Shown: positions 382 through 15,150 of the stretch, in pieces
Layout of the letters: each line of letters begins with the position of its first letter
Numbering within the stretch: the stretch's first letter is position 1
DNA from: an uncultured delta proteobacterium
GTDB taxonomy: Bacteria; RBG-13-61-14; DRUE01
NCBI GenBank assembly: GCA_903930515.1
Contig: CAIYYW010000203.1
Coordinates: 1 to 22,461, forward strand
Direction: 5' to 3'
Length of the DNA: 22,461 nucleotides
Notes under the pieces: generated by a model
Seen by the model: only the letters and a program-made list of their open reading frames with translations
Databases searched by the model: none
Told to the model about the DNA's origin: nothing
Program-made: the position numbers and the translations under genes

Positions 382-1116
382 TTATTCCCAGACTTCGCGG
401 TAGTCCTTTCCGAGATAAGCCCTTCGGACTTCGGGGTCGTTGATCAATTCCCGGGCGTCCCCCTGGAGCACGAGCCGTCCGTTCTCAAGCACATAGGCGC
501 GATCGGAAATGGCGAGCGCGGCCCTTGCGTTCTGCTCGACCAATAAAATAGTGGTTCCTTCCTTGCGGAGCCGGAAGATGTTTTCAAAAATCTCCCGCAC
601 CAGCTTGGGGGCGAGTCCCATTGAAGGCTCGTCCAATAAAAGCAGTTTGGGCCTGGCCATCAAGGCCCTTCCAATCGCGAGCATCTGTTGTTCGCCTCCG
701 CTCAGGGTCCCGGCGAACTGATTCTTGCGCTCGTCCAGGACTGGGAAGAGCTGGCAAATCCGTTCCAGGTCTTGGGCTCTTTGCTCGCGGTCCTTGCGCC
801 GGGATCGGAGGTATGCGCCTAGTTCCAGGTTTTCCAGGACGGTATGGTGGGCGAAAATCTGACGGCCCTCGGGCGCCTGGGAAATCCCCAGCCGGACAAT
901 GCGTTCCGGGGAGAGGCTTTTGAGGGACTGTTCTTCAAACACGATCTCCCCGGAGCCGGGCGTGAGGATTCCGGAGATGGTATTGAGCAGGGTGGTTTTC
1001 CCGGCGCCGTTTGCTCCGATCAGGGACACCACCTCTCCGGATTGGATATGGAGCGACACATTCCGGAGCGCCTGGATCCGGCCGTAAAAGGTGGAGATGT
1101 TTTTTATCTTGAGCAT
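382..1116 (-). CDS. livF: branched-chain/hydrophobic amino acid ABC transporter ATP-binding protein LivF
   Basis: One of the two ATPases that power the LivHM permease at the cytoplasmic face of the inner membrane. The 244-residue protein has Walker A GANGAGKT (34-41), the Q-loop region near 80-88 (APEGRQIF), ABC signature LSGGEQQ (138-144) and Walker B LLLLDEP (158-164). The position of the H-loop reads VEQN, with Gln instead of His, which is usual for LivF and separates it from LivG. Length is normal for the family. Its ATG overlaps the livG stop codon by one base (TAATG), so translation is probably coupled. It is the last gene of the unit. The family call is firm; the substrate is not decided by this subunit. 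Confidence 0.95.
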   Translation of the reverse strand: MLKIKNISTFYGRIQALRNVSLHIQSGEVVSLIGANGAGKTTLLNTISGILTPGSGEIVFEEQSLKSLSPERIVRLGISQAPEGRQIFAHHTVLENLELGAYLRSRRKDREQRAQDLERICQLFPVLDERKNQFAGTLSGGEQQMLAIGRALMARPKLLLLDEPSMGLAPKLVREIFENIFRLRKEGTTILLVEQNARAALAISDRAYVLENGRLVLQGDARELINDPEVRRAYLGKDYREVWE

Positions 1117-1892
1117 TACCTTCTCAACGACTTGATCCAGTCTTCCTCGCCCAGGTAGGCCTTGAGCACGGCGGGGTCCCGCTGGATTTCCTTGGGAGCG
1201 CCCTCGGCGATTTTCCTTCCCTGGTCCAGGACCACGATGCGGTCGGAGAGGTCCATCACCAGGCTCATATCGTGTTCAATGACGATGATGGTGATTTTAC
1301 GGGAGCGGAGCCTGCCGATATATTCGGCGAGTTCTTCGGTTTCATTATGGTTCAGCCCGGCGGCCGGCTCGTCCAGCAGCAGCAATTCCGGATGGGAACA
1401 GAGCGCCCTTCCCAGTTCAAGCATCCTCATCTTGCCGAACGACAAACTGCCGGCGCCGGCTTGGGCGGAACCTTTCAGGCCGATTTCGGAAAGCATCTCC
1501 ATTGCGCGTTCCCGGATGGATCGCTCTTCCTTGCGCTCCCAGGGCGGCTTGAGGATAGCCGAGAAAAAACCGGATCTCCCCTGGAGATGATACCCGGCCA
1601 TCAGGTTTTCCAGCACGGTCATCTCCTCAAAGATGGCGGGGTTCTGGAAGGTTCGGCAGAGGCCGAGTTTGGCGATCTGGTGCGTGGCAAGGCCGGTGAT
1701 GTTTTGTTCCCGGAAAAAGACTTTGCCGGAATCAGGGTGAAGGATTCCGCTGATCACATTGAAGAGGGTGGTCTTTCCGGCGCCGTTGGGCCCGATCAGT
1801 CCCAGGATTTCTCCGGGCTGAACCTGGAAGCCGACCTGGTCCAGGGCTTTCAGGCCTCCGAAACTTTTCGCGATCTCATCCAGCCGGAGCAT
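1116..1892 (-). CDS. livG: branched-chain/hydrophobic amino acid ABC transporter ATP-binding protein LivG
   Basis: Second ATPase of the Liv transporter, expected to pair with LivF under the LivHM permease. The 258-residue protein shows Walker A GPNGAGKT (34-41), a Q-loop in CRTFQNPAIF (79-88), a signature LSFGKMR (150-156) that departs from LSGGQ as LivG proteins often do, Walker B LLLLDEP (170-176) and the H-loop IEHDM with His207. Residues 105-128 form the charged insertion common in LivG. The start codon lies inside the end of livM (17-base overlap), and the stop overlaps the livF start. Both overlaps support one polycistronic message. Confidence 0.95.
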   Translation of the reverse strand: MLRLDEIAKSFGGLKALDQVGFQVQPGEILGLIGPNGAGKTTLFNVISGILHPDSGKVFFREQNITGLATHQIAKLGLCRTFQNPAIFEEMTVLENLMAGYHLQGRSGFFSAILKPPWERKEERSIRERAMEMLSEIGLKGSAQAGAGSLSFGKMRMLELGRALCSHPELLLLDEPAAGLNHNETEELAEYIGRLRSRKITIIVIEHDMSLVMDLSDRIVVLDQGRKIAEGAPKEIQRDPAVLKAYLGEEDWIKSLRR

Positions 1893-2841
1893 CTTGTTTC
1901 TTGACCTTGTTTCTGATGGTTTGGTAAATCCAGGAAAAGATCCCGGCCAATCCCTTGGGGGCGAACATCATCACCAGGATCAGGATGGCGCCGAAAACCA
2001 GCATCTCATAATCTTCCAGCACCGCCAGGAATTCCGGGAGGGAAGTGAGCAGGGCGGTTCCGAGCAAGGCTCCCCAGAGCGAACTGCTCCCGCCGATCAC
2101 CACCATCGCCATAAATTTTACTGAAGCCATAAATCCGAACGGGCTCGGGTTTACGAAGGTGAGGTAATGGGCGTAGAGGGACCCGGCCAGGGAGGCGTAT
2201 CCTGCGCTGAGTCCGAACATCAGGAGCTTGAACCAACTGACATTGATCCCGAGGGAGCCGGCCGCGGTTTGGTTCTGGCTGATGGACCGGAGGGCCCTTC
2301 CGATCCGGGAGTGGACCAGGTTGATGGAAAGGCCGTAGAGGATGATCAGGAAAATCCAACAGAGGAAATAATATTTACGGTCGTTGGAAAAGGTTATTGA
2401 GGACAGGTGGAAATAAGGGATTCCACCCATCCCGCTGGGACCTCCGGTCAGTTCCAGCTCTTCCTTGAAAATGATCTGGAGCACCACTCCCAGTCCGAGG
2501 GTGGCTATTGCCAGGTAATGGCCGCGCAAACGCAAGGTAGGTATGCCCAGGATGAAAGCGACCAGGACGGTGGCGATCAGGGCGATTCCCATCGCCGGCC
2601 AGGGATTAAGGTGGAGGTGGACGGTTAGGATCGCGGAGAAGTAGGCGCCGAGTCCAAAGAAGCCGGCGTGTCCGAGCGAGACCTGTCCGGCGTATCCCAT
2701 CAACAATGTCAGTCCCAAGACCACGATCCCGTAAATGGCGATGAAGATCAGGATGGAATAATAATATGGGCTTCGGATGAAGAGGGGCATTCCGAAGACA
2801 ACCGCGCAGAGCAAAAGCCAGATGCCCCAGTCGCGCTTCAT
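1876..2841 (-). CDS. livM: branched-chain/hydrophobic amino acid ABC transporter permease LivM
   Basis: Inner-membrane permease subunit that pairs with LivH. I place the start at the ATG at 2841, giving 321 residues beginning MKRDWGIWLLL. The frame stays open upstream to 3033, but those residues are charged and read through the livH gene, so they are not part of LivM. The chosen ATG overlaps the livH stop as ATGA, the classic coupled arrangement. The protein is strongly hydrophobic with about nine membrane spans. It has the family segments LTLLMGYAGQVSLGHAGFFG and IPTLRLRGHYLAIATLGLG near the middle, and the loop NQTAAGSLGIN that contacts the ATPases. The C-terminus is short and basic. Confidence 0.93.
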   Translation of the reverse strand: MKRDWGIWLLLCAVVFGMPLFIRSPYYYSILIFIAIYGIVVLGLTLLMGYAGQVSLGHAGFFGLGAYFSAILTVHLHLNPWPAMGIALIATVLVAFILGIPTLRLRGHYLAIATLGLGVVLQIIFKEELELTGGPSGMGGIPYFHLSSITFSNDRKYYFLCWIFLIILYGLSINLVHSRIGRALRSISQNQTAAGSLGINVSWFKLLMFGLSAGYASLAGSLYAHYLTFVNPSPFGFMASVKFMAMVVIGGSSSLWGALLGTALLTSLPEFLAVLEDYEMLVFGAILILVMMFAPKGLAGIFSWIYQTIRNKVKKQDAPAG

Positions 2842-3719
2842 ACCTTCTCCAATTTTTTCTTGAGGATGCCCGCGGGCCGCAGGTAAAGCATCAGGAGCAG
2901 AATCAGAAAGGCAAAGGCGTCCTTGTACCCGCTGGAGAGATATCCGGCGGAAAGGGATTCCACGATCCCGATCACCAGCCCGCCCATAACGGCCCCGGGG
3001 TTGGACCCGATCCCTCCCAGGATGGCTGCGCAAAAACCTTTCAGCCCGAGCATGGTTCCGGCGTCCCAGGCGGTGTAGGTGATGGGTGTGATCAGGACCC
3101 CGGCAAAGGCTCCCAGCAGGGCGCTGAGTCCGAAGGAAAAAAGCACCATCCGCTCCACGCTGATCCCGCAGAGACGGGCGGCCTTGCGGTTGAAGGCGCA
3201 GGCTCGCAGGGCTTTTCCGGTGATGGTTTTTTCGTAGAAGTAGTGGAGCAGGATCACGGCGAGCAGAGTTCCGGCCATCACCCAGAGGCTCTGACCGGAG
3301 AGGGTTGCCCCGAAGAATTTGATCGGCTCGGTGGAGGTGAAGGCGGGAAGGGACCTTGATTCCTTGCCCCAGATCAGCACGGCGATTCCCTTGAGCAGGA
3401 TGGACCCGCCGATGGTGATGATGATCAGGTTGATCACCGAGCCGTTCCGGACCGGCCGGATCGCGAGCCGCTCGAAGATCAGTCCGATCAGTGCGGTGAT
3501 GGCGACGGCGAGGATCACGGCCACCCAGAGGGGGACTCCGAGCAAGGGGAATAAGCTGACCGCGATCATAGATCCGAGCATCACGAATTCTCCCTGGGCG
3601 AAATTGATGATTTCGGTGGAGTTGTAAATGATGGAAAAGCCGAGCGCGACCAGGGCGTAAACCGCTCCGGTGGTAATCCCGGTGATCAGGTATTGCAGTA
3701 ATTGATCATACCATTCCAA
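2838..3719 (-). CDS. livH: branched-chain/hydrophobic amino acid ABC transporter permease LivH
   Basis: Inner-membrane permease subunit, 293 residues, with about eight hydrophobic spans. The N-terminus carries the family hallmark GAVYALVALGFSIIYNSTEI followed by NFAQGEFVMLG. The stretch KALRACAFNRKAARLCGIS (about 172-190) is the cytoplasmic coupling loop, and GLKGFCAAILGGIGSNPGA near residue 228 is another conserved block. Its ribosome site is weak (only a short GGA just before the ATG), in contrast to livK. A large hairpin lies between livK and this gene, so livH may be made at a lower level than the binding protein. The stop overlaps the livM start. Confidence 0.94.
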   Translation of the reverse strand: MEWYDQLLQYLITGITTGAVYALVALGFSIIYNSTEIINFAQGEFVMLGSMIAVSLFPLLGVPLWVAVILAVAITALIGLIFERLAIRPVRNGSVINLIIITIGGSILLKGIAVLIWGKESRSLPAFTSTEPIKFFGATLSGQSLWVMAGTLLAVILLHYFYEKTITGKALRACAFNRKAARLCGISVERMVLFSFGLSALLGAFAGVLITPITYTAWDAGTMLGLKGFCAAILGGIGSNPGAVMGGLVIGIVESLSAGYLSSGYKDAFAFLILLLMLYLRPAGILKKKLEKV

Positions 3720-3732
3720 ATTTTTCCCGGAT

Positions 3733-3772
3733 AAGGAAGGGAGGTTTGGGCAAAGCCCAAACCTCCCTCCTT
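3733..3772 (-). promoter_or_regulatory. large intercistronic hairpin between livK and livH
   Basis: A perfect 13-bp inverted repeat, GGGAGGTTTGGGC and its complement, flanks an AAA loop (arms 3739-3751 and 3755-3767). The stem continues with AAGGA/TCCTT on the outside, interrupted by one unpaired A. It fills most of the 67-base gap between livK and livH. No run of T follows on the minus strand, so it is not a standard intrinsic terminator. Known parallels, such as structures after periplasmic binding protein genes, protect the upstream message and reduce expression of the membrane genes. That role is inferred here. Confidence 0.75.
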
Positions 3773-3786
3773 AGAATTCAGACTCC

Positions 3787-4956
3787 TTATTTAACCAGTT
3801 CCCAGTTCCCGTTCTTGATGGTCACCATCATAAAAGCGTCCTTGGTCAGGCCCTCGTGATCATCGGGCCCCATATTGAAAATTCCTCCGGTGCCGGGGAA
3901 TCCCTTGACCTTTTCCAGCTCGTCCCGGATTTTCTTCTGGTCCGGGCCGGCCTTTTTAATAGCATCGGTCAACATGGTAAAGGCGTCGTAGGCGTGCCCG
4001 CCGAAAGTGGAAACCGGCGTTTTGTATTTGGCCTCGAACTTGTTCCGGTAATCAATCAGGACTTTCTTTTGCGGATCGGTGGCGGGAAGCAAGTCGGCCA
4101 CGATCAATTTGCCGGCGGGAAGGATGATCCCTTCGGAGGCGTCTCCGGCCAGTTCAATAAACTTCTTGGTGGCCACGCCGTGGCTCATAATCAGCATCTG
4201 CTTCATTCCCAACTGCTTCATATTCTTGGCCACCACCGCGGAGGGATCCCGGATCGCCCAGCAGATCACGGCCTCGGCCCCGGATCCCTTGATCTTGGTC
4301 AACTGAGCGCTCATATCGGTATCAGTCGGAGCGAAGCGCTCGTCGGCCACGATCTCGAACTTGTAATTGGGAGCCAGCCGTTGCAATTCCGCGCGGCCGG
4401 AATCTCCATACCCGGTTGACACCGACATAATGGCGATTTTCTTGACACCCTTTTTCTGGAGGTAGTCGAAGATTTTAGTCACCGCCAGGCTGTCTGACTG
4501 TGGGGTCTTGAAAACCCACTCGCGGGTCTTTTTGGTTTCCGGATCCCGGATGATCTTCCAACTCGCGGCGCAACTGACCAGAGGGATCTGCGCTGCGGTC
4601 ACGGTCGGAACGATCGCCATAGTGGTTCCGCTCTGGGAAGTTCCGATCAGGGCCAGCACCTTGTCCTGCTCAATCAGTTTTTTGGCCTTGATCAGGGATT
4701 TGGCCTCGTCGCCTTCATTGTCATAGAGGATCATTTCAATCAGGTGGCCGTTGATCCCGCCCTTGGCGTTGAGTTCTTCGGCCAGCATCCCCAGAGTTTG
4801 CTTTTCCGGCTCTCCCAGCGAGGACGCCGGACCGGTGATATCCAGGACCACTCCGATCTTATAAGTCTCTTTGGCCTGCTCCGCGGTGTTCGCGACCGAG
4901 ATCGCGACCAGTCCGACCAGAACAGTCAAAACCGCGGTCAACGCTAGTTTTTTCAT
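3787..4956 (-). CDS. periplasmic amino-acid-type substrate-binding protein LivK-like
   Basis: Periplasmic ligand-binding protein of the type I fold (Peripla_BP_6 family) that delivers substrate to LivHMGF. The 389-residue precursor begins with a Sec signal (MKKLALTAVLTVLVGLVAIS), with probable cleavage after ANTA near residue 25. No lipobox Cys is present, so it should be soluble in the periplasm. The mature start YKIGVVLDITGPASSLG is typical. The SQSGTT segment (about 112-117) lies where the family binds the amino acid backbone. It has a strong ribosome site (GGGAGGAAG). It follows the porin-like gene by 15 bases. Linked aryl-pyruvate oxidoreductase and aryl-CoA ligase genes suggest aromatic or hydrophobic amino acids, or aromatic acids, as ligands. 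This is inferred from context. Confidence 0.9.
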   Translation of the reverse strand: MKKLALTAVLTVLVGLVAISVANTAEQAKETYKIGVVLDITGPASSLGEPEKQTLGMLAEELNAKGGINGHLIEMILYDNEGDEAKSLIKAKKLIEQDKVLALIGTSQSGTTMAIVPTVTAAQIPLVSCAASWKIIRDPETKKTREWVFKTPQSDSLAVTKIFDYLQKKGVKKIAIMSVSTGYGDSGRAELQRLAPNYKFEIVADERFAPTDTDMSAQLTKIKGSGAEAVICWAIRDPSAVVAKNMKQLGMKQMLIMSHGVATKKFIELAGDASEGIILPAGKLIVADLLPATDPQKKVLIDYRNKFEAKYKTPVSTFGGHAYDAFTMLTDAIKKAGPDQKKIRDELEKVKGFPGTGGIFNMGPDDHEGLTKDAFMMVTIKNGNWELVK

Positions 4957-4971
4957 TATCTTCCTCCCTTT

Positions 4972-6309
4972 TTAGATGAAGAACCAGAAGCTCAGGGTAT
5001 AACGGTTGACCAACCCGTTGTCCCATTCCAAGGGCGCGTCTTCGGCCAGGTCGTATTCAGTGTTCACCTGCATCCACTCCAGGCTGACATCGGCTACCTT
5101 GGGCACCACCCAGTAATGAACGCTGGCATAGGCCATACTGTTCTTGGTGATCGACGAGATCGGGGCTTTGCCGTTATTCATGACCACAGCTTCATCCAAT
5201 TGACCATTGTCCACATCGTCCACGCCGTATCCGGCATAGATCACGAATTGGTTGAACGGCCCCAATTCCACTTCCCCCCATCCGCCGGTGCTCGCAAGCG
5301 GATGAAAGTCGCCATCATCGTCCACGACCCAGCCCTGGCCCTGCGCGCCGGTGTACTGGCCGTCCAGGTTGGCTCCCTGGAAGTATTCGCCGTTGATGGA
5401 CATCCACTTGGTGACCGGGAGCATCATATGAAGGTTCCAGCTCCAACTGGGGATCTTTTCCTTGTTGCCCAAGTCATCCAGATTTACCGCCCCATAATTA
5501 GTCACTTCTTCCATTGCATAGTGGCCGGTGACGCCGAGCTTGAAGGGCTTATCGTTGAGCTTGGAGTCCCACATAATTCCGCCCTGAAAATCCGGCTGAG
5601 CCGCGTCGTCTCCGGTATCCACATCATAGAATCCATTGTAATCGCCGATTTTATTATCAATGCTTCCCATAATCTGCAGTTGATTATCCATCAGGTATCC
5701 GGTCAGCCGGACCTGGGGCATCCGGTATCCCAGGTTGCCCATCTCCGCTCCCGCGGTATAGTTGGACACATGGGGAGCCAACGGGCTCATCACCATCCAG
5801 TCGTTTCCGGCCAGGATGCTCAGGGATTTGCACTTCAACTCAACGGTGGCGATCCGGAGTAAAAAGTTTCCCTTGCTCTCGTCTTCATAGTTATAGCTGG
5901 AAACCGCGCCGGTGAGCGGGTCATATTTGGAGATGATTTTGCCACCGCCGGTCCCGTAAAAGTCTCCTTCAAACCGGCCCAATACCTGGCCGTCTTTCCC
6001 GAAAGTGGGTCCCTTGATCCTGAACCCGAACCGGCTTTGACGGGCGGTGATGGAGAAGGACGGGTCTTCGCTGTTTCTGGTGAAATCATCCGATTCCGGC
6101 ACATAGCCGTCGTGAAGGTTTCCAGGCGGAACCATCACCAGATAATTGTCTCCATAGGCCTTGGCGTCCATATACACGGTGTCCACTTTCAGGTAGCCGT
6201 AAAAAGTGACATCCCAGTTGCTGAGCATATTCTTTGGCCCGGCTTGTTGACCAAAGGCGCTCAGGCTGACCAATACGCCCAAAATCGCAATCAATATTCC
6301 TTTTTTCAT
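4972..6309 (-). CDS. outer-membrane beta-barrel protein, porin-like
   Basis: Predicted outer-membrane porin of 445 residues. I start it at the ATG at 6309 because it has a good ribosome site (CGGAGGGAG) and a clean Sec signal, MKKGILIAILGVLVSLSAFG, probably cut before QQ. The frame continues upstream to 6444, but those residues are charged and not signal-like. The mature protein begins with WDVTFYGYLKVDTVYMD, similar to the first strands of DcaP-like porins, and then alternates short aromatic/polar strands with acidic Gly/Asp/Asn-rich loops. It ends in TLSFWFFI, an aromatic-rich last strand expected by the BAM machinery, although the final residue is Ile rather than Phe. The 115-base upstream gap is AT-rich and may hold its own promoter. 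Its place just before livK suggests entry of the same substrate. Confidence 0.8.
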   Translation of the reverse strand: MKKGILIAILGVLVSLSAFGQQAGPKNMLSNWDVTFYGYLKVDTVYMDAKAYGDNYLVMVPPGNLHDGYVPESDDFTRNSEDPSFSITARQSRFGFRIKGPTFGKDGQVLGRFEGDFYGTGGGKIISKYDPLTGAVSSYNYEDESKGNFLLRIATVELKCKSLSILAGNDWMVMSPLAPHVSNYTAGAEMGNLGYRMPQVRLTGYLMDNQLQIMGSIDNKIGDYNGFYDVDTGDDAAQPDFQGGIMWDSKLNDKPFKLGVTGHYAMEEVTNYGAVNLDDLGNKEKIPSWSWNLHMMLPVTKWMSINGEYFQGANLDGQYTGAQGQGWVVDDDGDFHPLASTGGWGEVELGPFNQFVIYAGYGVDDVDNGQLDEAVVMNNGKAPISSITKNSMAYASVHYWVVPKVADVSLEWMQVNTEYDLAEDAPLEWDNGLVNRYTLSFWFFI

Positions 6310-6424
6310 AGATCTCCCTCCGTTAAATAAATTTTTAAATACCATCCTTAACTGACACTTACCCAAGCCCACTTTACTTTCCTCAATCCCCCTTTCTTTC
6401 TTTGTTGTTGACAGCGTAAATCGC

Positions 6425-7753
6425 TTACAACTTCCTTTTATCAATCACCCTTTGGGCCTTTCCTTCAAACCTCTGCAAAGTCCGCGGCTCCACCAGGCGG
6501 ACCTTGGCGCCGACCTGGTACAACTCCCGGATCTCGTTTTCAATTTTTTTCTGGAGGCTTTCCAATCCCCTGACCATATCGGTCATCATCTTCTCGTTGC
6601 ACTCCACCAAGACCTCTAGGGTATCAAGATTATTTATCCGGTCAACTATCAACTGATAGTGCGGCTCCACGCCCTCAATTTTCATCAAGAGGTCTTCAAT
6701 CTGACTGGGGAACAGGTTCACCCCCCGGATGATCAGCATATCGTCGGTCCTGCCCTTGATCCGGGCGATCCTGCGGTTGGTCCTTCCGCAAGCGCATTGA
6801 TCGCTCATCATCCGGCTGAGGTCCCGGGTGCGGTAGCGGATGACCGGGAAGGCTTCCTTATGGATGGTGGTAATGACCAGCTCCCCCCATTCCCCTTCCG
6901 GGACCGGCTTCAAGGTTTGCGGGTCAACCACCTCCACGATAAAAACATCCTCGGCGATGTGCTGCCCGTTCTTGCACAAACATTCCCCGGAAACCCCCGG
7001 CCCCATCACCTCGCTCAGTCCGTAATTGTCAGTGGCGGTGATGAACAGACGGCCCTCAATCTCCTCCCGCATCCGCTCGCTCCAGGGCTCGCCCCCGAAC
7101 AGTCCCCATTTGAGGGAAAGGCTCCGGGGGTCCACCCCCATCTCCTCCATCGTCTCAACCAGATAGAGCGCGTAGCTGGGCGTGCAGACCAGGGCGGTGG
7201 TCTTGAAATCCTGCATAATCATAATCTGCTTCTTGGTGTTCCCGCTGGAACTAGGGATCACGCTCGCGCCGATCTTCTCCGCGCCGTAATGCAACCCGAA
7301 CCCTCCGGTGAACAGGCCGTAGCTGAAGGCGATCTGGACCACATCGTCCGCGGTCACCCCGGCCGCGGTCATCATCCGGGCCACAATCTCCGCCCAGGTG
7401 TCCAGGTCGTTTTTAGTGTATCCCACCACCGTGGGCTTGCCGGTGGTTCCGGACGAGGAATGGATCCGGACCACTTCCCGGAGCGGCACCGCGAACAGGC
7501 CGTAGGGATAGTTGTCGCGCAGGTCGTTCTTGCCGGTAAAGGGAAGCCGGGACAGGTCGGACAGGGATTTCAGGTCTTCCGGCTCGAATTTTATTTCTTC
7601 AAAATGCCTGCGGTAAAACTTGACATTCCGAGAGACCTTCTGGAGCGTGGCCTGGAGCCGCTCCAACTGGAGCTGAGCCCTCTCGTCCGAACTCATCCGC
7701 TCGGACCTGGGATTCCAGATCCGGTGCTCAACTTTGGCTCCGCACTCTTTCAT
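6425..7753 (-). CDS. phenylacetate-CoA ligase family protein (paralog 1)
   Basis: AMP-forming aryl-acid CoA ligase of the PaaK family, 442 residues. It would interconvert an arylacetate, ATP and CoA with arylacetyl-CoA, AMP and PPi in the cytoplasm. Visible motifs are the phosphate loop [10 protein letters not shown] (99-108), YGLSE (244-248), RYRTRDLSR (307-315), [20 protein letters not shown] (334-353), which covers the domain hinge, and the C-terminal catalytic Lys432 in EGKAQR. Compared with the second copy it has an 11-residue N-terminal extension. At the putative metal-binding segment it has Gly256 and Val270 where paralog 2 has Cys245 and His260, while keeping C320-A-C322. The start overlaps the ACT gene stop as ATGA. 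Substrate is likely aryl-acetate, but could be another aromatic or branched acid. Confidence 0.9.
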
Positions 7754-8184
7754 TTGGCCAGCGCCAACACCTCTTCATTGGTCATAACCCTGACCTTGGT
7801 TTTCTTCAACGATTCCACCGCCCGGTCCGGATCGTCAAACCGGAACACGATCAAGGCGTCCTGCCTCCGGGAAACAAACGCATACATATATTCCACATTC
7901 AACCTGTTTTCCGCAAACACCTTCAGCACCTTTCCCAGCGAGCCGGGCTGGTCCGGGATTTCCACCGCCAACACCTCGGTTTCGGTGACGGTGAATTTCC
8001 TTTCCTTCAAAACCTTCCGGGCCTTTTCAAAATCGGTCACGATCATCCGGATCACCCCGAAATCGCTGCTCTCCGCCACGGTGAGCGCCATAATATTGAT
8101 CCCGGCTTCCCCCAGCGCACTCGCCATTTCCGAGAGCCTCCCCGGCTGGTTTTCCATAAACACCGAAATCTGCTTGACCTTCAT
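7750..8184 (-). CDS. tandem ACT-domain protein
   Basis: Small cytoplasmic protein of 144 residues made of two ACT domains (about 1-70 and 71-144) with little else. Domain 1 shows [18 protein letters not shown] and [12 protein letters not shown]; domain 2 shows [18 protein letters not shown] and [10 protein letters not shown]. The repeated xxQPGxL turns are the usual amino-acid-binding site in ACT regulators. Proteins of this kind often sit beside iorAB and paaK genes, where an amino-acid-sensing role is assumed but, to my knowledge, not well proven. A strong ribosome site (GGAGGGAG) precedes the ATG, which lies 26 bases after paralog 2 of the ligase. Its stop overlaps the start of paralog 1. 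It has no DNA-binding domain or catalytic domain. Confidence 0.9.
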
Positions 8185-8210
8185 CCTTTCTCCCTCCCAA
8201 CTTTACCGGC

Positions 8211-9509
8211 TTAAATCTTTCTCTTATCAATCACCCGTTTGGCTTTTCCTTCCGAACGCTGGATGGTTCTCGGCTCCACCAAAGTGATTTTGGCGCTCAC
8301 TCCCAGGAAATCTTTGAGGTCGTATTCCAGCTTTTTTTTCAACTGGTCCAGCTTTTTCATTTCGTCCGAGAAAATCTTCTCGTTCACTTCCACCTGTATT
8401 TCCAACTCGTCCATCGTTCCCTTGCGGTCAACAATGATCTGGTAGTGCGGCTCCAGCCCCTCAATCTTCATAAGCACATGCTCAATCTGGCTGGGGAAAA
8501 CATTGACGCCCCTGATGATCAGCATATCATCGGTCCTGCCCGTGATCCGCTCCATCCGGTAAGAAGTCCTCCCGCACGGACACGGCTCCGAAATCAGACG
8601 GCTCAGGTCGCGGGTCCGGTATCGGATCAACGGGAAAGCCTCTTTGGTCAGGGAAGTGAAGACCAACTCTCCCATTTCTCCGAGCGGGACCGGCTCCAGG
8701 GTTTTGGGATTGACCACCTCTGCCAGGAAATGGTCCTCATTAATATGGAGGCCGAATTTGGCTTCCAGACATTCGCAGCTCACGCCCGGGCCGATCACTT
8801 CGGAAAGTCCGTAAACATCCAGGGCCTTGAGGTTCAGTTGCTTCTCAATCTCCGTCCTCATCCCCTCGCTCCAAGGCTCGGCGCCGAAGATGCCGACCTT
8901 GAGCTTGAATTTACGGATGTCCGCTCCCTGCTGCTTGGCCGATTCCGCCGGGTTCAGGGCGTAGCTGGGCGTGCAGCAGAGCACGGTTGATCCGAAATCC
9001 TGCATAATCATAATCTGGCGCTGGGTCTGTCCCCCCGAAATCGGGATCACGGTGGCGCCCACCCTTTCCGCGCCGTAATGGAACCCGAGTCCGCCGGTGA
9101 ACAGGCCGTAGCCATAGGCGTTATGGATCACATCCCCGGCGTGGACGCCGGCGCCGGATAAAGCGCGCGCCATCAAATCCGACCACATCGTAATATCGTT
9201 CCTGGTATAGCCGACCACCGTGGGCTTGCCGGTGGTGCCGGAAGAGGCGTGCACCCGGACCACCTCCTCCATCGGGACCGCGAACATCCCGAAGGGATAG
9301 TTGTCGCGCAAATCGCTCTTGATGGTAAAGGGCAGATTCTTGAGGTCGGAAAGTTTTTTAATATCCGAGGGCTTGAGCTTGGCCTGGTCAAACTGCTTCC
9401 GGTAAAAAGGGACCTTCTCATATACCCGATTGACCACCGCCTGCAAACGCTTAAGCTGGAGTCCCTCCAGATCCTTCCTTGATAAGGTTTCCTCCTGGTT
9501 CCAAATCAT
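8211..9509 (-). CDS. phenylacetate-CoA ligase family protein (paralog 2)
   Basis: Second PaaK-family AMP-forming ligase, 432 residues. It has the phosphate loop [10 protein letters not shown] (88-97), YGLSE (233-237), RYRTRDLSR (297-305), [20 protein letters not shown] (324-343) and catalytic Lys422 in EGKAKR. It carries a Cys/His set, C245-E-C247, EDHF with His260, and C310-P-C312, that could bind a metal as in zinc-containing anaerobic members of the family; this is inferred from the pattern. It aligns with paralog 1 along its whole length, and the two gene ends are nearly alike in DNA, so they probably arose by tandem duplication. The ATG has a GGGAGCAGGGGA ribosome site. It directly follows iorB and is the ligase most likely to share substrate with IorAB. 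Confidence 0.92.
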
Positions 9510-9539
9510 TTCCCCTGCTCCCTTTTTTAATTTCCGCTG

Positions 9540-9569
9540 ATACTACCACAATTAATAAAATAAATTCAA
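9540..9569 (-). promoter_or_regulatory. possible internal promoter ahead of the paaK-like pair
   Basis: In the 56-base gap after iorB the minus strand shows TTGAAT (9564-9569), an 18-base AT-rich spacer, and TAGTAT (9540-9545). Each box matches 4 of 6 consensus bases. It could give extra transcription of the ligase-ACT genes. Chance occurrence in an AT-rich gap is a real alternative. Confidence 0.25.
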
Positions 9570-10159
9570 GGCCCCGCCAATTCCCTTCCCCTTTGAAAGG
9601 CCTTGAGGTTTATTTCAACGGCCTTTTTAGGAACCATTTCCTTGACTTTATCCAGCCAGAGTTGAAGATTAAAATCAAGGATTTTGCTCAAAGACCCGAG
9701 CAGGACAATTCCGGCGACGCGGGCATCCCCAAGCCCCACCGCTTCTTTCAAGGCGTCTATCGCGATCAATTGCGGATCTTTGGCTTTGAGTTTTTCCACC
9801 AGTCCTTCCGGATATGGTTTTTCTCCCCGGAACACCGAGGGCGGGTCTATCTTCTGGAGGCTGGCGATGATTTTTCCGCCTTCTTTTAAATAGGGCAGCC
9901 AGCGGCAGGTTTCCAATAATTCCGATCCGAACAGGATGTCCGCTTCCCCGGCCGGAATCAGGGGGGAATATACCTTTTGCCCGAACCGGATATGGCTGGA
10001 GACCGCGCCTCCGCGCTGTGCCATTCCGTGCACTTCGCTTTTCTTGATTACCAGGCCGGATTCCGCGGCCACTGCGGCCAGGATGGAGCTGGTGAGTATT
10101 ATCCCCTGCCCCCCCACTCCGACCATCAGGACATTGGTCACTTCCGCAGCCGGCTTCAT
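9566..10159 (-). CDS. iorB: indolepyruvate:ferredoxin oxidoreductase, beta subunit
   Basis: Small subunit of the thiamine-diphosphate enzyme that decarboxylates indolepyruvate, phenylpyruvate and similar aryl-2-oxo acids to arylacetyl-CoA and CO2 while reducing ferredoxin. The 197-residue protein is of the POR-gamma type, with MVGVGGQGI (12-20) and SEVHGMAQRGGAVSSHIRFG (41-60), the best-known family block. I start it at the ATG at 10159, whose A of the preceding TAA overlap (TAATG) joins it to the iorA stop. Upstream residues in the same frame to 10225 are read from iorA DNA and are not family-like. The overlap suggests balanced production of the two subunits. It carries no iron-sulfur motif, as expected. 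Confidence 0.94.
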   Translation of the reverse strand: MKPAAEVTNVLMVGVGGQGIILTSSILAAVAAESGLVIKKSEVHGMAQRGGAVSSHIRFGQKVYSPLIPAGEADILFGSELLETCRWLPYLKEGGKIIASLQKIDPPSVFRGEKPYPEGLVEKLKAKDPQLIAIDALKEAVGLGDARVAGIVLLGSLSKILDFNLQLWLDKVKEMVPKKAVEINLKAFQRGRELAGP

Positions 10160-11925
10160 TATTGATCCTCCCGGCAAATCGCGGCTTCGTTGCAGACCTG
10201 GAGGCAGATTTCGCATCCGGTGCATTGGAGCGGATCAATCCGGGCATACCCTTTTCTTTTTTTGCCCGGCTCGGTTTTCGCCTCCCAGGTCAAGGCCGGG
10301 CACATCAGTTGGAGACAGATTTTGCACCCGTCGCATTTTTCCCGATCCACCCGGACCGGCTTTTTCCTGACGCCCTTGAACTGCGGGATCAGCACACAGG
10401 CCGACCGGGCGATGATCACGGAAGGCTCGTCCGCTTCCATCTCTTCTTGAATAACTTTTTCCAGCAAGGGAAGATCATAGGGGTTGACCACCGTCACCCT
10501 TTTCACCCCCAGCCCCAGGACCAGCTTTTCCAACTCCACCACCGGCGAGGGCTGGCCGTAGATGTCCAGGCCGGACCCGGGATGGCCCTGCCTTCCGGTC
10601 ATTGCCGTGGTCAGGTTGTCCAGGATGAGCACCGTGCCCTTGCCCCGGTTGTAAACAATGTCCGCGAGCGCTGTGATCCCGGAATGATAAAAGGTGCTGT
10701 CGCCGATCACCGCAACCACCCGGGCGTCTTTCCCCAAAGCCTTTTCCATCCCAAAGCTCTGGCCGATCCCGGCTCCCATGCAAAGGCAGGTGTGCAGGGC
10801 ATTGAGCGGGGGCTGCGCCGCCAGGGTGTAACAGCCGATGTCCCCGCAGGTGAAGACCTTGAGCTTTTTCAGGATATGGAACACTCCCCGGTGCGGACAG
10901 CCCGGACAGAGGATGGGAGGCCGCTGCGGGATGGCCTGGTCAAAGTTGATTTCCCGGACCGACCCTTTGCCGGAGACGCCTTGCTTCACCAGTTCCGGAC
11001 TCAACTCTCCGCAGAGTGGAAAAACCTCCTTGCCCACCGGGTCCAACCCCATCATCCGGAGGTTGTCTTCCAGGAACGGGTCCAATTCCTCCACCACAAA
11101 TAATTTTTCCACCTGCCCGGCGAATTTCTTGACCAGCTTTTCCGGGAGCGGCCAGACCATTCCCAACTTGAGGAAAGAGGCGTCGGGGAAGGCCTCGCGG
11201 CCGTATTGGTAAGCGACCCCGCTGGACACGATCCCGATTTTTTTATCTCCCATCTCAATCCGGTTTTCCGGAAAGGTCTCGGCGAATTCTTTCAGCCTGT
11301 TCATCCGCTCTTCCACCAGCGGGTGCCGGGGACGGGCGTATCCGGGCAACATCACATACTTGGACGGGTTCCGGTCAAATTTTTTCAGGACCGGTCCCAT
11401 CTTCCGCTCTTCCAGCTCGGTCAAACTTTCGCCGTGGGAAATCCGGGTGGTCAAACGGAGCAGCACCGGGCAGTCATATTTTTCCGAAAGAGCAAACGCG
11501 GTTTTGGAGAACCTCCTCGCCTCGTCGCTGTCCGAGGGCTCCAGCATCGGCAGTTTGGCCGCCCGGGCGTAATGTCGGTTGTCCTGCTCGTTCTGGCTGG
11601 AATATAAATTAGGGTCGTCGGCCGTGACCACCACCAGCCCTCCCTGGATCCCGGTGTAAGAAAGGGTGAAAAGGGGATCCGAGGCCACATTGAGTCCGAC
11701 ATGCTTCATCGCGCAGAGCGAGCGGGCGCCTGCGTACCCGGCTCCGGAGGCCACTTCCAGCGCCACCTTCTCGTTGACGCTCCACTGCGCGTTCACCTCC
11801 GGATACCCGGCAAGGGCTTGCACAATCTCGGTGCTGGGAGTGCCGGGATAGGCCGTGGCGACCTCTACTCCCGCTTCCCAGGCTCCCCGGGCAACTGCTT
11901 CATTACCGCTTAACAGTTTTCTCAA
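10159..11925 (-). CDS. iorA: indolepyruvate:ferredoxin oxidoreductase, alpha subunit
   Basis: Catalytic and electron-transfer subunit of the aryl-pyruvate oxidoreductase. I choose a TTG start at 11925 because AGGAGGAGG (11931-11939) lies just ahead of it; this gives 588 residues starting LRKLLSGNEAVARGAWEAG, where family members usually begin. An ATG at 11982 would add 19 residues that translate through that ribosome site. Order of regions: pyrimidine-binding domain with AYPGTPSTE, a middle domain, the CPGCPHRG block (340-347), the thiamine-diphosphate site starting at GDST (408-411), and two C-terminal [4Fe-4S] motifs, Cys531/534/537/542 and Cys568/571/574/578. The last cysteine of the second cluster is followed by Asn, not the usual Pro. 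The stop overlaps the iorB start. Confidence 0.95.
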   Translation of the reverse strand: MRKLLSGNEAVARGAWEAGVEVATAYPGTPSTEIVQALAGYPEVNAQWSVNEKVALEVASGAGYAGARSLCAMKHVGLNVASDPLFTLSYTGIQGGLVVVTADDPNLYSSQNEQDNRHYARAAKLPMLEPSDSDEARRFSKTAFALSEKYDCPVLLRLTTRISHGESLTELEERKMGPVLKKFDRNPSKYVMLPGYARPRHPLVEERMNRLKEFAETFPENRIEMGDKKIGIVSSGVAYQYGREAFPDASFLKLGMVWPLPEKLVKKFAGQVEKLFVVEELDPFLEDNLRMMGLDPVGKEVFPLCGELSPELVKQGVSGKGSVREINFDQAIPQRPPILCPGCPHRGVFHILKKLKVFTCGDIGCYTLAAQPPLNALHTCLCMGAGIGQSFGMEKALGKDARVVAVIGDSTFYHSGITALADIVYNRGKGTVLILDNLTTAMTGRQGHPGSGLDIYGQPSPVVELEKLVLGLGVKRVTVVNPYDLPLLEKVIQEEMEADEPSVIIARSACVLIPQFKGVRKKPVRVDREKCDGCKICLQLMCPALTWEAKTEPGKKRKGYARIDPLQCTGCEICLQVCNEAAICREDQ

Positions 11926-11985: not shown

Positions 11986-12648
11986 TTATTTGTTCGGCTG
12001 AGCCTCCGGGGCTTTGACGGTTGCTCCGGGAGCAACCTGGGGAGTGGGTTCGGGAGGGGCTTTCTTTTCTCCGCCTGCCTTATTTCCTTCCTGGAAATTC
12101 TTGTTCACTTTTTCCATCTGCTCCAGCCAATCCAGGTTTTCCTTGAAGACTTTATTGTCCGGCTCCAGCGAGACCGCTTTTTCAATATCCTTGCGGGCCA
12201 ACTCAAATTTGCCCAAATACCCTTCAACCACACCCCGGTTGCTGTAAGCCTTGGCGTAATCATCCCGGGCCTTGATCGCCTGGTCAAATTCCTGAATCGC
12301 CTGGTCAAACTTGAGTTGGGGCCCCTGCATATACAGGAATCCCAGATTATAATAGGCCTCCGGGTAATCCGGATTCAACTCAACCGCTTTCTTATAATGT
12401 TGCTCGGCATCCGAAAATTTTCCCCGCTTGGCATAGGAATATCCCAGCTGGTTCTCCAAAACCGCATTCTTGGGGTCGGCCTTCAGCTTTTCCTGGTAAT
12501 ACTTGGTGGCTTCCCAATATTTGCCGTCATTAAGGTATTGTATCCCTTCCGGGTAGGGATTCTTCTTGCATCCCCCCAGGGAACCGCCGATCCCGATCAA
12601 AACCAGCAAGAGCCATACCGGGATGGAATTAAGAACCCTCTTTTCCAT
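11986..12648 (-). CDS. TPR-repeat lipoprotein
   Basis: Predicted lipoprotein of 220 residues, starting at the ATG at 12648 with a strong AAGGAGG site. The N-terminus MEKRVLNSIPVWLLLVLIGI leads to a lipobox LGGC, with Cys27 as the lipidation site. Next come about four tetratricopeptide repeats (roughly residues 33-165), recognisable by blocks such as LGYSYAKRGKFSDAEQHYKK and YNLGFLYMQG. The last 40 residues are Lys/Pro/Ala-rich and look disordered. TPR domains bind partner proteins; the partner is unknown. It overlaps the preceding mscS-like gene by 20 bases and lies 60 bases before iorA, so it is probably cotranscribed, though its link to amino acid metabolism is unclear. It sits in the inner or outer membrane facing the periplasm. 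Confidence 0.85.
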   Translation of the reverse strand: MEKRVLNSIPVWLLLVLIGIGGSLGGCKKNPYPEGIQYLNDGKYWEATKYYQEKLKADPKNAVLENQLGYSYAKRGKFSDAEQHYKKAVELNPDYPEAYYNLGFLYMQGPQLKFDQAIQEFDQAIKARDDYAKAYSNRGVVEGYLGKFELARKDIEKAVSLEPDNKVFKENLDWLEQMEKVNKNFQEGNKAGGEKKAPPEPTPQVAPGATVKAPEAQPNK

Positions 12649-13132
12649 TTTGATCCTCCTTCGCGTTTGCAACCGATTGTAGCAAAGTTTTAGATAAATT
12701 TCCAAAGCACACGGTCCGGGCCGGAAAAGGCAACTGAATCCCGAGCCGGTCAAAGCGTTTTTTCACCCGGAGATTAAGCTCCCGTCCCACCCGCCATTGT
12801 CGGGCCGGTTTGGTCTTGATCCGGCCCTGGATCATTACCGCGGAATCTTCAAACCGATCCAAACCCAGAATCTCAGCCGGCTCCAGGATGTCGTCCTTGA
12901 ACCTCGGGTCATTCCTCAATTCCTCCGCCACCTCTTCCAAGACTTTGATCACCCGCTTTTTAGATTCCTCGTTCCGGATGACGCCGGCCATTTTATTGAA
13001 CCGCTTAATCAGCAGGCGGGAGGACAACAGGGCCAGGCCGGCGAGCAGGACGATCAGGCCCAGCCTTTGACAGAGGCTGACCCAGCCCTCGCGGCCGAAC
13101 GCGGATATCCATTGATCCAATTGGCTACTCAC
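12629..13132 (-). CDS. short MscS-like protein lacking the pore region
   Basis: A 167-residue protein whose C-terminal half (about 61-144) matches the cytoplasmic alpha/beta domain of MscS mechanosensitive channels: KVLEEVAEELRNDP, ILEPAEILGLDRFEDSAV, GRIKTKPARQW and GIQLPFPARTV. The N-terminus has one hydrophobic span (about 21-41) and a charged stretch RNEESKKR like the linker after TM1 in MscS proteins. The pore helix TM3, TM2 and the beta domain are absent, so it cannot form a normal MscS pore alone. The start is a GTG at 13132, with GGAAGG only a few bases ahead; TGA lies upstream in frame. It could be a decayed channel gene or a working one-span oligomer or modulator. The clean frame and overlap with the TPR gene favour a real gene. 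Confidence 0.7.
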   Translation of the reverse strand: MSSQLDQWISAFGREGWVSLCQRLGLIVLLAGLALLSSRLLIKRFNKMAGVIRNEESKKRVIKVLEEVAEELRNDPRFKDDILEPAEILGLDRFEDSAVMIQGRIKTKPARQWRVGRELNLRVKKRFDRLGIQLPFPARTVCFGNLSKTLLQSVANAKEDQNGKEGS

Positions 13133-13161
13133 CTTCCGATCATCTCAGAATCCGGTTCCGG

Positions 13162-13204
13162 AAAAAATACCCCTGATCCCGGCCTTGAATTCCCGGGGCC
13201 GGGA
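13162..13204 (-). terminator. weak candidate terminator after the Ig-like gene
   Basis: An 8-bp inverted repeat TCCCGGCC/GGCCGGGA (13177-13184 and 13197-13204) with a 12-base loop lies just after the stop codon at 13214. Six T residues (13162-13167, minus strand) follow, but nine bases separate them from the stem, more than in good intrinsic terminators. It may cause partial termination before the mscS-like gene. Confidence 0.3.
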
Positions 13205-13213
13205 AATCATCCT

Positions 13214-14026
13214 TTACCGAGCGGTGAAGTAGGTATTGGTGGATTCGCACACCACCTTTTTGTCCTTCAGCAACTGGTAGGACGCGGCATATGCCCCGGC
13301 CGGGAGCCAGGCCGGAACATAATTCCAGTAGGAGGCTTCCTGATCAAAGCCGGGCTTAATGGTTTTGTTGTAAATCAATCCTCTTAAAGGCTCCACCTTT
13401 TTCCCCTCAAGGAAGAACTGAATCTTATATCCTTGCAGTTTCTTGGGACCATAAACCTCGGCGCGCAAGATGAAGTTAAGATACCCGAGCAATCTCTCGT
13501 TGGTGATCTCGCGCTGGCCGTACATCACCAGGATCGGGCCGCAATGCGCCGGCTCGCCCGGAGCGGGATATACCTCCAACTCGGAAACCCCGCGGATCGG
13601 CCTCTGGTCCGCATCCAGGCAGCCGCTCGACTCGGCCGCGATCTTGAAATTGCCCGCGGCCATTCCGGATACCGAAAAGACGGCGCTGTCTCCCGAGGCC
13701 GTGAGCTTGTGTCCGTCGGAAGTTGTCAGTTTTTCCCCCTCGGGCAGGCCCCGGAAATACCAGACCAGGTTGGCCGGGACTTGCTTGCCCGAGCCGTCGT
13801 AGGCCTTGGCGATTAACTTAACCTCTTTGCCCGCGCCCACAGTTATTTGAGGATCGTTGACGCGGTCCGGGCTGAGCACGATTTTGGAGAACCCGCAGGT
13901 TGGAAGGACTACCGGCGCCGGGGCCTCCACCGCCTTTTTGCCTTTCTTCTTGTCTTTCTTGGTCGCGCCGACCAGCAGGCCGACGCTCAGGATCAATGCC
14001 AAAGCCAGGATTATTCTCTTCTTCAT
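13214..14026 (-). CDS. secreted protein with Ig-like domain, function unknown
   Basis: Exported protein of 270 residues that I cannot assign to a named family. A Sec signal (MKKRIILALALILSVGLLVG) ends near residue 21, followed by a Lys-rich patch KKDKKKGKK (23-31) and a short Pro/Ala linker. Residues about 48-152 look like a bacterial Ig-like (Big_2-type) domain: VLSPDRVNDPQITVGAGKEV, a KAYDGSGKQV strand, then VSGMAAGNFKIAAESSG. Residues about 160-270 form a second beta-rich region with LEGKKVEPLRGLIYN and a C-terminal AGAYAASYQLLKDKKVV, like a domain that describes ligand-free beta sandwiches. Four Cys (44, 136, 162, 260) could form two disulfides. The start has AAGGAGG ten bases upstream. 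It is placed between an SDR and the mscS-like gene. Confidence 0.7.
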   Translation of the reverse strand: MKKRIILALALILSVGLLVGATKKDKKKGKKAVEAPAPVVLPTCGFSKIVLSPDRVNDPQITVGAGKEVKLIAKAYDGSGKQVPANLVWYFRGLPEGEKLTTSDGHKLTASGDSAVFSVSGMAAGNFKIAAESSGCLDADQRPIRGVSELEVYPAPGEPAHCGPILVMYGQREITNERLLGYLNFILRAEVYGPKKLQGYKIQFFLEGKKVEPLRGLIYNKTIKPGFDQEASYWNYVPAWLPAGAYAASYQLLKDKKVVCESTNTYFTAR

Positions 14027-14057
14027 CTCCCCGAAACCTCCTTTTCAGTGCCGATAC

Positions 14058-14087
14058 TATATATCACAAGTATTGGTGATTTGTAAA
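14058..14087 (-). promoter_or_regulatory. possible promoter for the Ig-like protein gene
   Basis: Minus strand: TTTACA (14082-14087, 5 of 6 matches), an 18-base spacer, and TATATA (14058-14063). A start near 14050 would leave the AAGGAGG site at 14037-14043 inside the message. An imperfect dyad ATACT/AGTAT overlaps the region. The site lies at the very 3' end of the SDR gene. Confidence 0.35.
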
Positions 14088-15059
14088 CCAGCCGATCGCC
14101 CTCTTGACCGCGTCCTCAATCGGGGTCTGGGGCATGCCCAATTCCCGGATCGCTTTTTGGGCCGTGAAATAATGATCGGCGTATCCCATTTTGGCGGTGA
14201 CGGAATTGATGTCGGGCTCAAACCGGAAAAGCCGGCCGAGCAGATCAAAAAGATACCCGGCCGATACCGCGGCGGGATACGGGATTTTAAAGCCGGGCGG
14301 CTTCACCCCGGCGATCCCGGCCACCAGCGAGAAAAATTCCCGGTAGCTTAAATTCCCGGAATCGTTGGCCAGGATATATGCCTCGCCGGTTTTCCCCTTC
14401 TCCATCGCCAGCCTCATCCCCTCGCAGACATCCAGCACATCCACGAAATTGTTCCCGCCCTCCGGGTATCCCGGGGCGCGTCCCTTGCAGACCTGGACGA
14501 TCATCTGCCCGGAGGTGGGTTTGAGGTCCCATTCCCCGATCATAAAAGTGGGCTTGATCAGGACCAGGTCCAGGCCCCGGCTTAAAAATTTCCTCGCCTC
14601 CTGCTCGGCCTGGTATTTGGTGTCGGTGTATGGGCTTCGGTATCTCGCCATTGATTCGTGCTCGGGCCAGTCCTCGTCCGCGGGATGCTCCCGGCTGGAC
14701 AGACCCAGGGTGTCCACCGTGCTGACATAAACCACCCGCTTGACCCCGGCTTTAAGAGCGGCTTCCATAACATTGATGGTGCCCTGGACATTCACGGCGT
14801 AACAATTGCCGTAGTTCGGCCGCCATTGGCTGACCAGGGCCGCGCAATGATAAACCCGGCCCACTCCCGACATCGCAGTCTCCAGGCTCTCCGGCTCCCG
14901 GATGTCGCCGTAAGCGATCTCCACCTGCAAATCCTGGAGCGCCAAGGCCTTGGAGCTTTTCCGGAGCAGCGCCCGCAGGTCGCGCTCATTTTTGCTCCAG
15001 AGATGCCTGGCCAGGTTCCCGCCCAGCAATCCGCTCGCGCCGGTGATCAAGGTTTTCAT
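14064..15059 (-). CDS. NAD(P)-dependent SDR, HpnA/dihydroflavonol-reductase-like
   Basis: Extended short-chain dehydrogenase of 331 residues. The start is the ATG at 15059 (GAAGGAAG ribosome site), directly before the nucleotide-binding motif TGASGLLG (6-13). Other family marks are GDIRE (51-55), the VSTVDTLG strand (112-119) with Ser113/Thr114, and the catalytic pair Tyr144/Lys148 in YTDTK. Blocks such as NVQGTINVMEAALKAGVKRV and KPTFMIGEWDLKPTSGQMI resemble hopanoid-associated epimerase HpnA and dihydroflavonol reductases. No hopanoid genes are nearby, so the substrate is open; a nucleotide sugar, sterol-like or lipid-linked alcohol are all possible. It is transcribed away from the GT39 gene across a 91-base gap, and it may be the first gene of the long minus-strand unit. 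Confidence 0.85.
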   Translation of the reverse strand: MKTLITGASGLLGGNLARHLWSKNERDLRALLRKSSKALALQDLQVEIAYGDIREPESLETAMSGVGRVYHCAALVSQWRPNYGNCYAVNVQGTINVMEAALKAGVKRVVYVSTVDTLGLSSREHPADEDWPEHESMARYRSPYTDTKYQAEQEARKFLSRGLDLVLIKPTFMIGEWDLKPTSGQMIVQVCKGRAPGYPEGGNNFVDVLDVCEGMRLAMEKGKTGEAYILANDSGNLSYREFFSLVAGIAGVKPPGFKIPYPAAVSAGYLFDLLGRLFRFEPDINSVTAKMGYADHYFTAQKAIRELGMPQTPIEDAVKRAIGWFTNHQYL

Positions 15060-15150
15060 TTTGCTTCCTTCAACTTTACAAAAAAAATCCCCGTCCGTCA
15101 ACCGGTTCCCATTTTAATCGCCGATGTGATAAAATTTTCCGGTTTGGACA

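Follow-up and report, generated by a model that had tools for sequence, protein, structure and literature searches.

Anaerobes build phenylalanine, tyrosine and tryptophan from phenylacetate, hydroxyphenylacetate and indoleacetate. In methanogens, IorAB (indolepyruvate:ferredoxin oxidoreductase, IOR) is reportedly encoded beside a PaaK-type ligase in an aryl-acid route of this kind, proposed to lead towards aromatic amino acids. A like pairing of IOR with an AMP-forming arylacetate-CoA ligase in Bacteroides has been proposed to run in the same direction, and it has been argued that it may be biosynthetic (PMC13285125). Both resemble the cluster described below in the IorAB-ligase pair but differ in that a Liv-type importer, a second ligase and a porin are not described as part of them. 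Binding proteins of the same type as the one encoded here are known from the Rhodopseudomonas palustris p-coumarate importer (RPA1789), which lies beside a p-coumarate-CoA ligase (PMC3223731), and from Variovorax, where IadK2 serves indole-3-acetate (PMC10374108). Uptake is tied to aryl-acid metabolism in both systems, although the enzymes are a hydratase/lyase or a Rieske oxygenase, and Ior and an ACT protein are not described. The paa cluster of Pseudomonas putida likewise combines a dedicated outer-membrane porin and a transporter (PaaL/PaaM) with phenylacetyl-CoA genes, but it serves aerobic degradation, lacks Ior and imports through one permease, PaaL, where the present cluster encodes a five-gene ABC importer (PMC2653477). 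In Desulfococcus multivorans, the tags of the two PaaK-type genes of the padJ pair (dmul_C22990/C23060) are far enough apart for six intervening genes, a spacing that, as judged from the tags only, resembles paaK-livFGMHK-ACT-paaK and was not reported as a system (PMC5109826). Parts and sub-associations of the cluster are already known and its core is widespread, whereas the open-access full texts searched contain no account of the complete set as a single system, with Ior, the ACT protein, both ligases, the aromatic-type Liv importer and the porin together. The original prediction, that the version with its own porin and complete Liv transporter had not been described as one system, agrees with these papers, but the version is not a one-off, as the core with Liv genes occurs widely and has gained porins on several occasions.

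The window, which is the whole 22,461-nucleotide contig G000:C203 of a 3.65-Mb metagenome-assembled genome (MAG; 93% complete) from an uncultured delta proteobacterium, carries eleven genes on its minus strand (11925-382) in the order iorA-iorB-paaK-ACT-paaK-porin-livKHMGF (Table 1), each at the place originally predicted. The phylum of the source MAG is represented in the comparison by three genomes (G000, G001 and G002), which are incomplete MAGs. Translation of iorA starts at a TTG codon at 11925, preceded by GGAGGAGG. The junctions are overlapping or close, as anticipated: five overlap, namely iorA/iorB (TAATG), ACT/paaK2 (ATGA), livH/livM (ATGA), livM/livG and livG/livF, and the remaining gaps measure 15-115 bp, the widest (115 bp) lying upstream of the porin gene. 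A single transcript for all eleven genes is plausible; consensus promoter and terminator matches at the cluster were of little informative value. The livK-livH junction (window 3720-3790, minus strand) contains a strong hairpin, GGAGGGAGGTTTGGGC-TTT-GCCCAAACCTCCC (z -4.1), and strong hairpins of differing sequence are found at this junction in most cluster loci, perhaps giving higher expression of the binding protein. Upstream of iorA (11986-15101, minus strand) are genes for an HpnA-like SDR, an unknown protein of 270 aa, an MscS C-terminal domain on its own and a TPR lipoprotein. They may share a transcript with iorA, and G001 keeps them upstream of its iorAB, on the contig that carries that pair.

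Table 1. Computed gene content of the cluster, in order of transcription.
Feature	Position	Strand	Basis
iorA, indolepyruvate:ferredoxin oxidoreductase alpha subunit (predicted)	10159..11925	-	TIGR03336; TTG start
iorB, indolepyruvate:ferredoxin oxidoreductase beta subunit (predicted)	9566..10159	-	PF01558; NF005322 above cut-off
paaK1, PaaK-type aryl-CoA ligase, ior/ACT-adjacent lineage	8211..9509	-	TIGR02155 636.4 bits, PF14535; tree
tandem ACT-domain protein, putative amino-acid sensor	7750..8184	-	PF19571 1.2e-27; 2f06 1.7e-29
paaK2, second PaaK-type ligase, separate lineage	6425..7753	-	TIGR02155 573.6 bits, PF14535; tree
DcaP-like outer-membrane porin (predicted)	4972..6309	-	six-relative profile vs DcaP 6eus, 5.6e-13
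livK-type periplasmic binding protein, aromatic-acid kind (predicted)	3787..4956	-	sequence relatives, residues, model
livH-type permease	2838..3719	-	PF02653
livM-type permease	1876..2841	-	PF02653; ATG overlapping livH stop
livG-type ATPase	1116..1892	-	PF00005, PF12399
livF-type ATPase	382..1116	-	PF00005

By family criteria, IorAB is predicted to be an indolepyruvate:ferredoxin oxidoreductase. IorA scores 706.5 bits against TIGR03336 (cut-off 650.9) and comprises a TPP domain and two 4Fe-4S motifs, the eight motif cysteines being invariant in the comparison; IorB, in which the POR domain is present, scores 240.6 against NF005322 (cut-off 237). The same genome also encodes another, divergent iorA-iorB pair (L049, G000:C313, 12805-16133) with about 37-43% identity. 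Both ligases appear PaaK-like and resemble TIGR02155, yet they fall below its cut-off of 646.3 bits (Table 1) and by score are not members of that equivalog. In a phylogenetic tree, the ligases adjacent to ior and ACT form one group (88/99) apart from the second ligases, indicating that two distinct ligases are kept side by side.

The reading that we favour, at a little short of an even chance, is that the cluster is a module for aromatic-acid uptake and assimilation, leading from aryl acid through aryl-CoA to arylpyruvate. An aryl carboxylate (an arylacetate or aryl-2-oxo acid) would enter through the DcaP-like porin in the outer membrane, be bound by the LivK-type protein and be imported by LivHMGF. 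Free arylacetates would become arylacetyl-CoA through the AMP-forming PaaK-type ligases, and IorAB would interconvert arylacetyl-CoA, CO2 and reduced ferredoxin with arylpyruvate, most likely running mainly towards arylpyruvate because the adjacent ligases favour thioester formation. An unlinked aminotransferase would then turn arylpyruvate into Phe, Tyr or Trp, while the ACT pair would probably sense an aromatic amino acid and tune the ligases or IOR. Uptake of aryl acids and their activation by AMP-forming ligases is suggested by the parts present. The direction put forward in the original prediction, to arylacetyl-CoA and reduced ferredoxin, is unproven: Ior and the AMP-forming ligases make the same thioester from different substrates, which does not imply one forward chain, and they either feed one pool from two sides or act in succession, with IOR carboxylating the thioester. 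The ACT sensor fits biosynthetic control better than catabolism, and in L096 a class-I aminotransferase gene follows the second ligase. Counted against assimilation are the reversibility of IOR, the PF13607 genes described below and the unlinked iorAB of G001; prephenate dehydratase, moreover, is present in all three phylum genomes, so that salvage of aromatic amino acids would not be essential. Substitution of IorA for a missing prephenate dehydratase was considered and rejected, as the enzyme is present in the phylum and its absence is not associated with IorA in 98 genomes (dehydratase lacking in 13/40 against 19/58; Fisher p = 1.0).

Catabolism is a serious rival, ranked somewhat below assimilation and credible as a minority reading. 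IorAB would oxidise imported arylpyruvates, or transaminated aromatic amino acids, yielding arylacetyl-CoA and reduced ferredoxin; imported arylacetates would join the pool via PaaK, and the thioester would undergo further oxidation or yield ATP on cleavage by an ADP-forming ligase encoded elsewhere. Such a course is consistent with the binding of 3-phenylpyruvate by 4dqd, a relative of LivK, with the formation of an Ior by D. multivorans on phenylpyruvate (PMC5109826) and with PF13607 (ADP-forming-ligase-type) genes, which occur elsewhere in the genome of the window organism and near iorB in L053, L139 and L140. AMP-forming ligases would, however, be wasteful where fermentation already gives the thioester, the ACT protein is a better match for biosynthetic control, and the three phylum genomes gave no match to BamA, which marks the benzoyl-CoA route, or to PaaA, which marks the aerobic phenylacetyl-CoA route. 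Degradation via benzoyl-CoA or the aerobic paa route was rejected for the latter reason.

Comparison of gene order bore out the predicted linkage for the core, which is conserved in several phyla, but not for the full cluster in the closest relative, where iorAB is split off. The core iorAB-paaK-ACT-livKHMGF-paaK is found in Thermodesulfobacteriota, Nitrospirota and others, in this order in L060 (Thermodesulfobacteriota), L064 (Nitrospirae), L067, L072 (Desulfobulbaceae), L084 and L096 (both Desulfobacterales). A shorter iorAB-paaK-ACT-paaK occurs in L114 and L119, iorAB-paaK-ACT is present in many Clostridia, and Geobacter presumably has a counterpart. All three genomes of a second small phylum (G026, G098 and G099) display paaK-ACT-livKHMGF-paaK-porin-iorA-iorB. 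Since the same gene set recurs, differently ordered, in other phyla, the linkage goes beyond chance, and the analysis supports a conserved co-linear locus in which aryl-CoA chemistry is combined with an ABC importer and a channel in the outer membrane. In the second phylum (L053, L139 and L140; 3/3 genomes), a PF13607 ADP-forming-type CoA-ligase alpha gene lies a few kb past iorB, and G026 additionally has genes for an arylsulfatase-like protein and a PF03601 membrane protein nearby. In G001, a sister species and the only other genome of the genus compared, paaK1-ACT-paaK2-porin-livKHMGF is intact, with identities to the window proteins of 59-61% for the porin and 64-85% for the others. Its iorAB is located on a separate contig and followed by a convergent gene, and 1.1 kb of other sequence precedes paaK1. 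G002, of the same order as the window organism, has iorAB-paaK1 only.

The porin-like barrel of the original prediction can be assigned more closely, as a predicted DcaP-like carboxylate porin of distant homology. The window protein alone gave no Pfam or NCBIfam match, whereas the profile of six relatives aligned with DcaP 6eus over positions 87-455 of 477, most of the barrel. Two relatives score 21.3 and 24.5 bits against the Pfam DcaP family PF19577 (gathering score 27), which the window protein does not match. The Acinetobacter DcaP porins (6eus) belong to a family that serves carboxylic-acid uptake and is required for Acinetobacter growth on carboxylic acids (PMC12338516). An AlphaFold2 model built from a two-row alignment had a pLDDT of 29, too low for use. 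The gene is single-copy in G000 and in the genome of L060, and a genome-contig scan with the porin query gave no relative. Porin relatives were found in 21 of the 198 Thermodesulfobacteriota genomes, none near ior or paaK except in L060, some contigs being short; the porin as a fixed part of the module was rejected on these counts. In a tree of 28 porins, in which some branches are long, the six cluster-linked copies require three changes and a single clade of them is rejected (p-AU 2.5e-43), indicating that a carboxylate-type channel joined the cluster at least three times, independently. Porins are inserted at differing places within the cluster, and in L096 an unrelated barrel, Alginate_exp (PF13372), lies ahead of iorA. 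We regard the porin as an accessory that recurs, outside the core of the module. The families of the P. putida porin and permease PaaL/PaaM are presumably different from those of the window cluster. Four DcaP-like porins from Thermodesulfobacteriota (L176, L180, L185 and L190) adjoin an acetyl/propionyl-CoA-synthetase-like gene, which suggests a wider role in organic-acid uptake.

These results bear on whether the genes form one route at all. The separation of iorAB in G001, the reduced set in G002, the variation in gene order between lineages and the 115-bp gap ahead of the porin would suit a loose neighbourhood in which iorAB, paaK-ACT-paaK and porin-liv are expressed separately, as two or three units. 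This is improbable given the recurrence of the same set in several orders across phyla and the repeated joining of channels to the cluster.

The substrate type of the importer was assessed from LivK. All five Liv proteins score far below the LivKHMGF equivalog cut-offs (NCBIfam). The nearest solved relatives of LivK are 3sg0, 4dqd, 7ylt, 3ukj, 3tx6, 4jb0 and 3uk0 (E 1e-49 to 1e-40), which would place it with the aromatic-acid binding proteins (cluster B-III); the pneumococcal amino-acid binder/LivJ 4gnr is intermediate (E 2.8e-35) and E. coli LivJ is at E 1.7e-11. Among these, 7ylt is probably IadK2, the Variovorax indole-3-acetate binder, by family agreement with PMC10374108. The LivKs of L060 and L140 are likewise nearest to aromatic-acid binders by sequence. 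The best fold matches of the LivK model (pLDDT 79) are binders of p-coumarate, caffeate, 3-phenylpyruvate and 3-hydroxybenzoate (Z about 34), with amino-acid binders close behind at Z 32-33, within 1-2 Z, and thus the fold alone is not decisive. The residue comparison is sharper. From the LivJ structures we take LivJ Glu226 to grip the alpha-amino group of the ligand. E. coli LivK also has Glu at this position, whereas 12/12 cluster LivKs have His there, as do 3sg0, 7ylt and 3tx6; LivJ Tyr202 is lost in all of the 12 and in the same three structures. The nearest sequences, the fold ranking, the replacement of Glu226 and the loss of Tyr202 together make an aromatic carboxylate the likelier ligand, rather than an amino acid as the original prediction had it. 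Import of hydrophobic or aromatic amino acids by Liv, with deamination elsewhere and oxidation by Ior, accords with the family-name annotation, the fold scores and the 4gnr match, but is improbable, because His takes the place of the amino-group ligand, the closest sequences are aromatic-acid binders, the window has no aminotransferase, as originally noted, and the ligases would be left without a role. As LivK is probably no amino-acid binder, a linked aminotransferase is unnecessary for uptake, and the label 'branched-chain amino acid' importer is likely a misannotation here.

If uptake and assimilation is the correct reading, the cluster could represent a widespread and undescribed bacterial salvage of aryl acids from outer membrane to amino acid, with a porin, an aromatic-type ABC importer, two aryl-CoA ligases, IOR acting as arylpyruvate synthase, ACT feedback and repeated porin recruitment; in this full form the proposal is doubtful but worth stating. 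Bacterial genes for the uptake and control of aryl-acid assimilation are poorly defined, and the cluster offers concrete candidates; aryl-acid exchange, indoleacetate included, would become readable from sediment genomes. Elsewhere in the window, on the plus strand (16656-18554), a propionate-CoA ligase gene (above the TIGR02316 cut-off) is followed by methyltransferase and glycosyltransferase-like genes.
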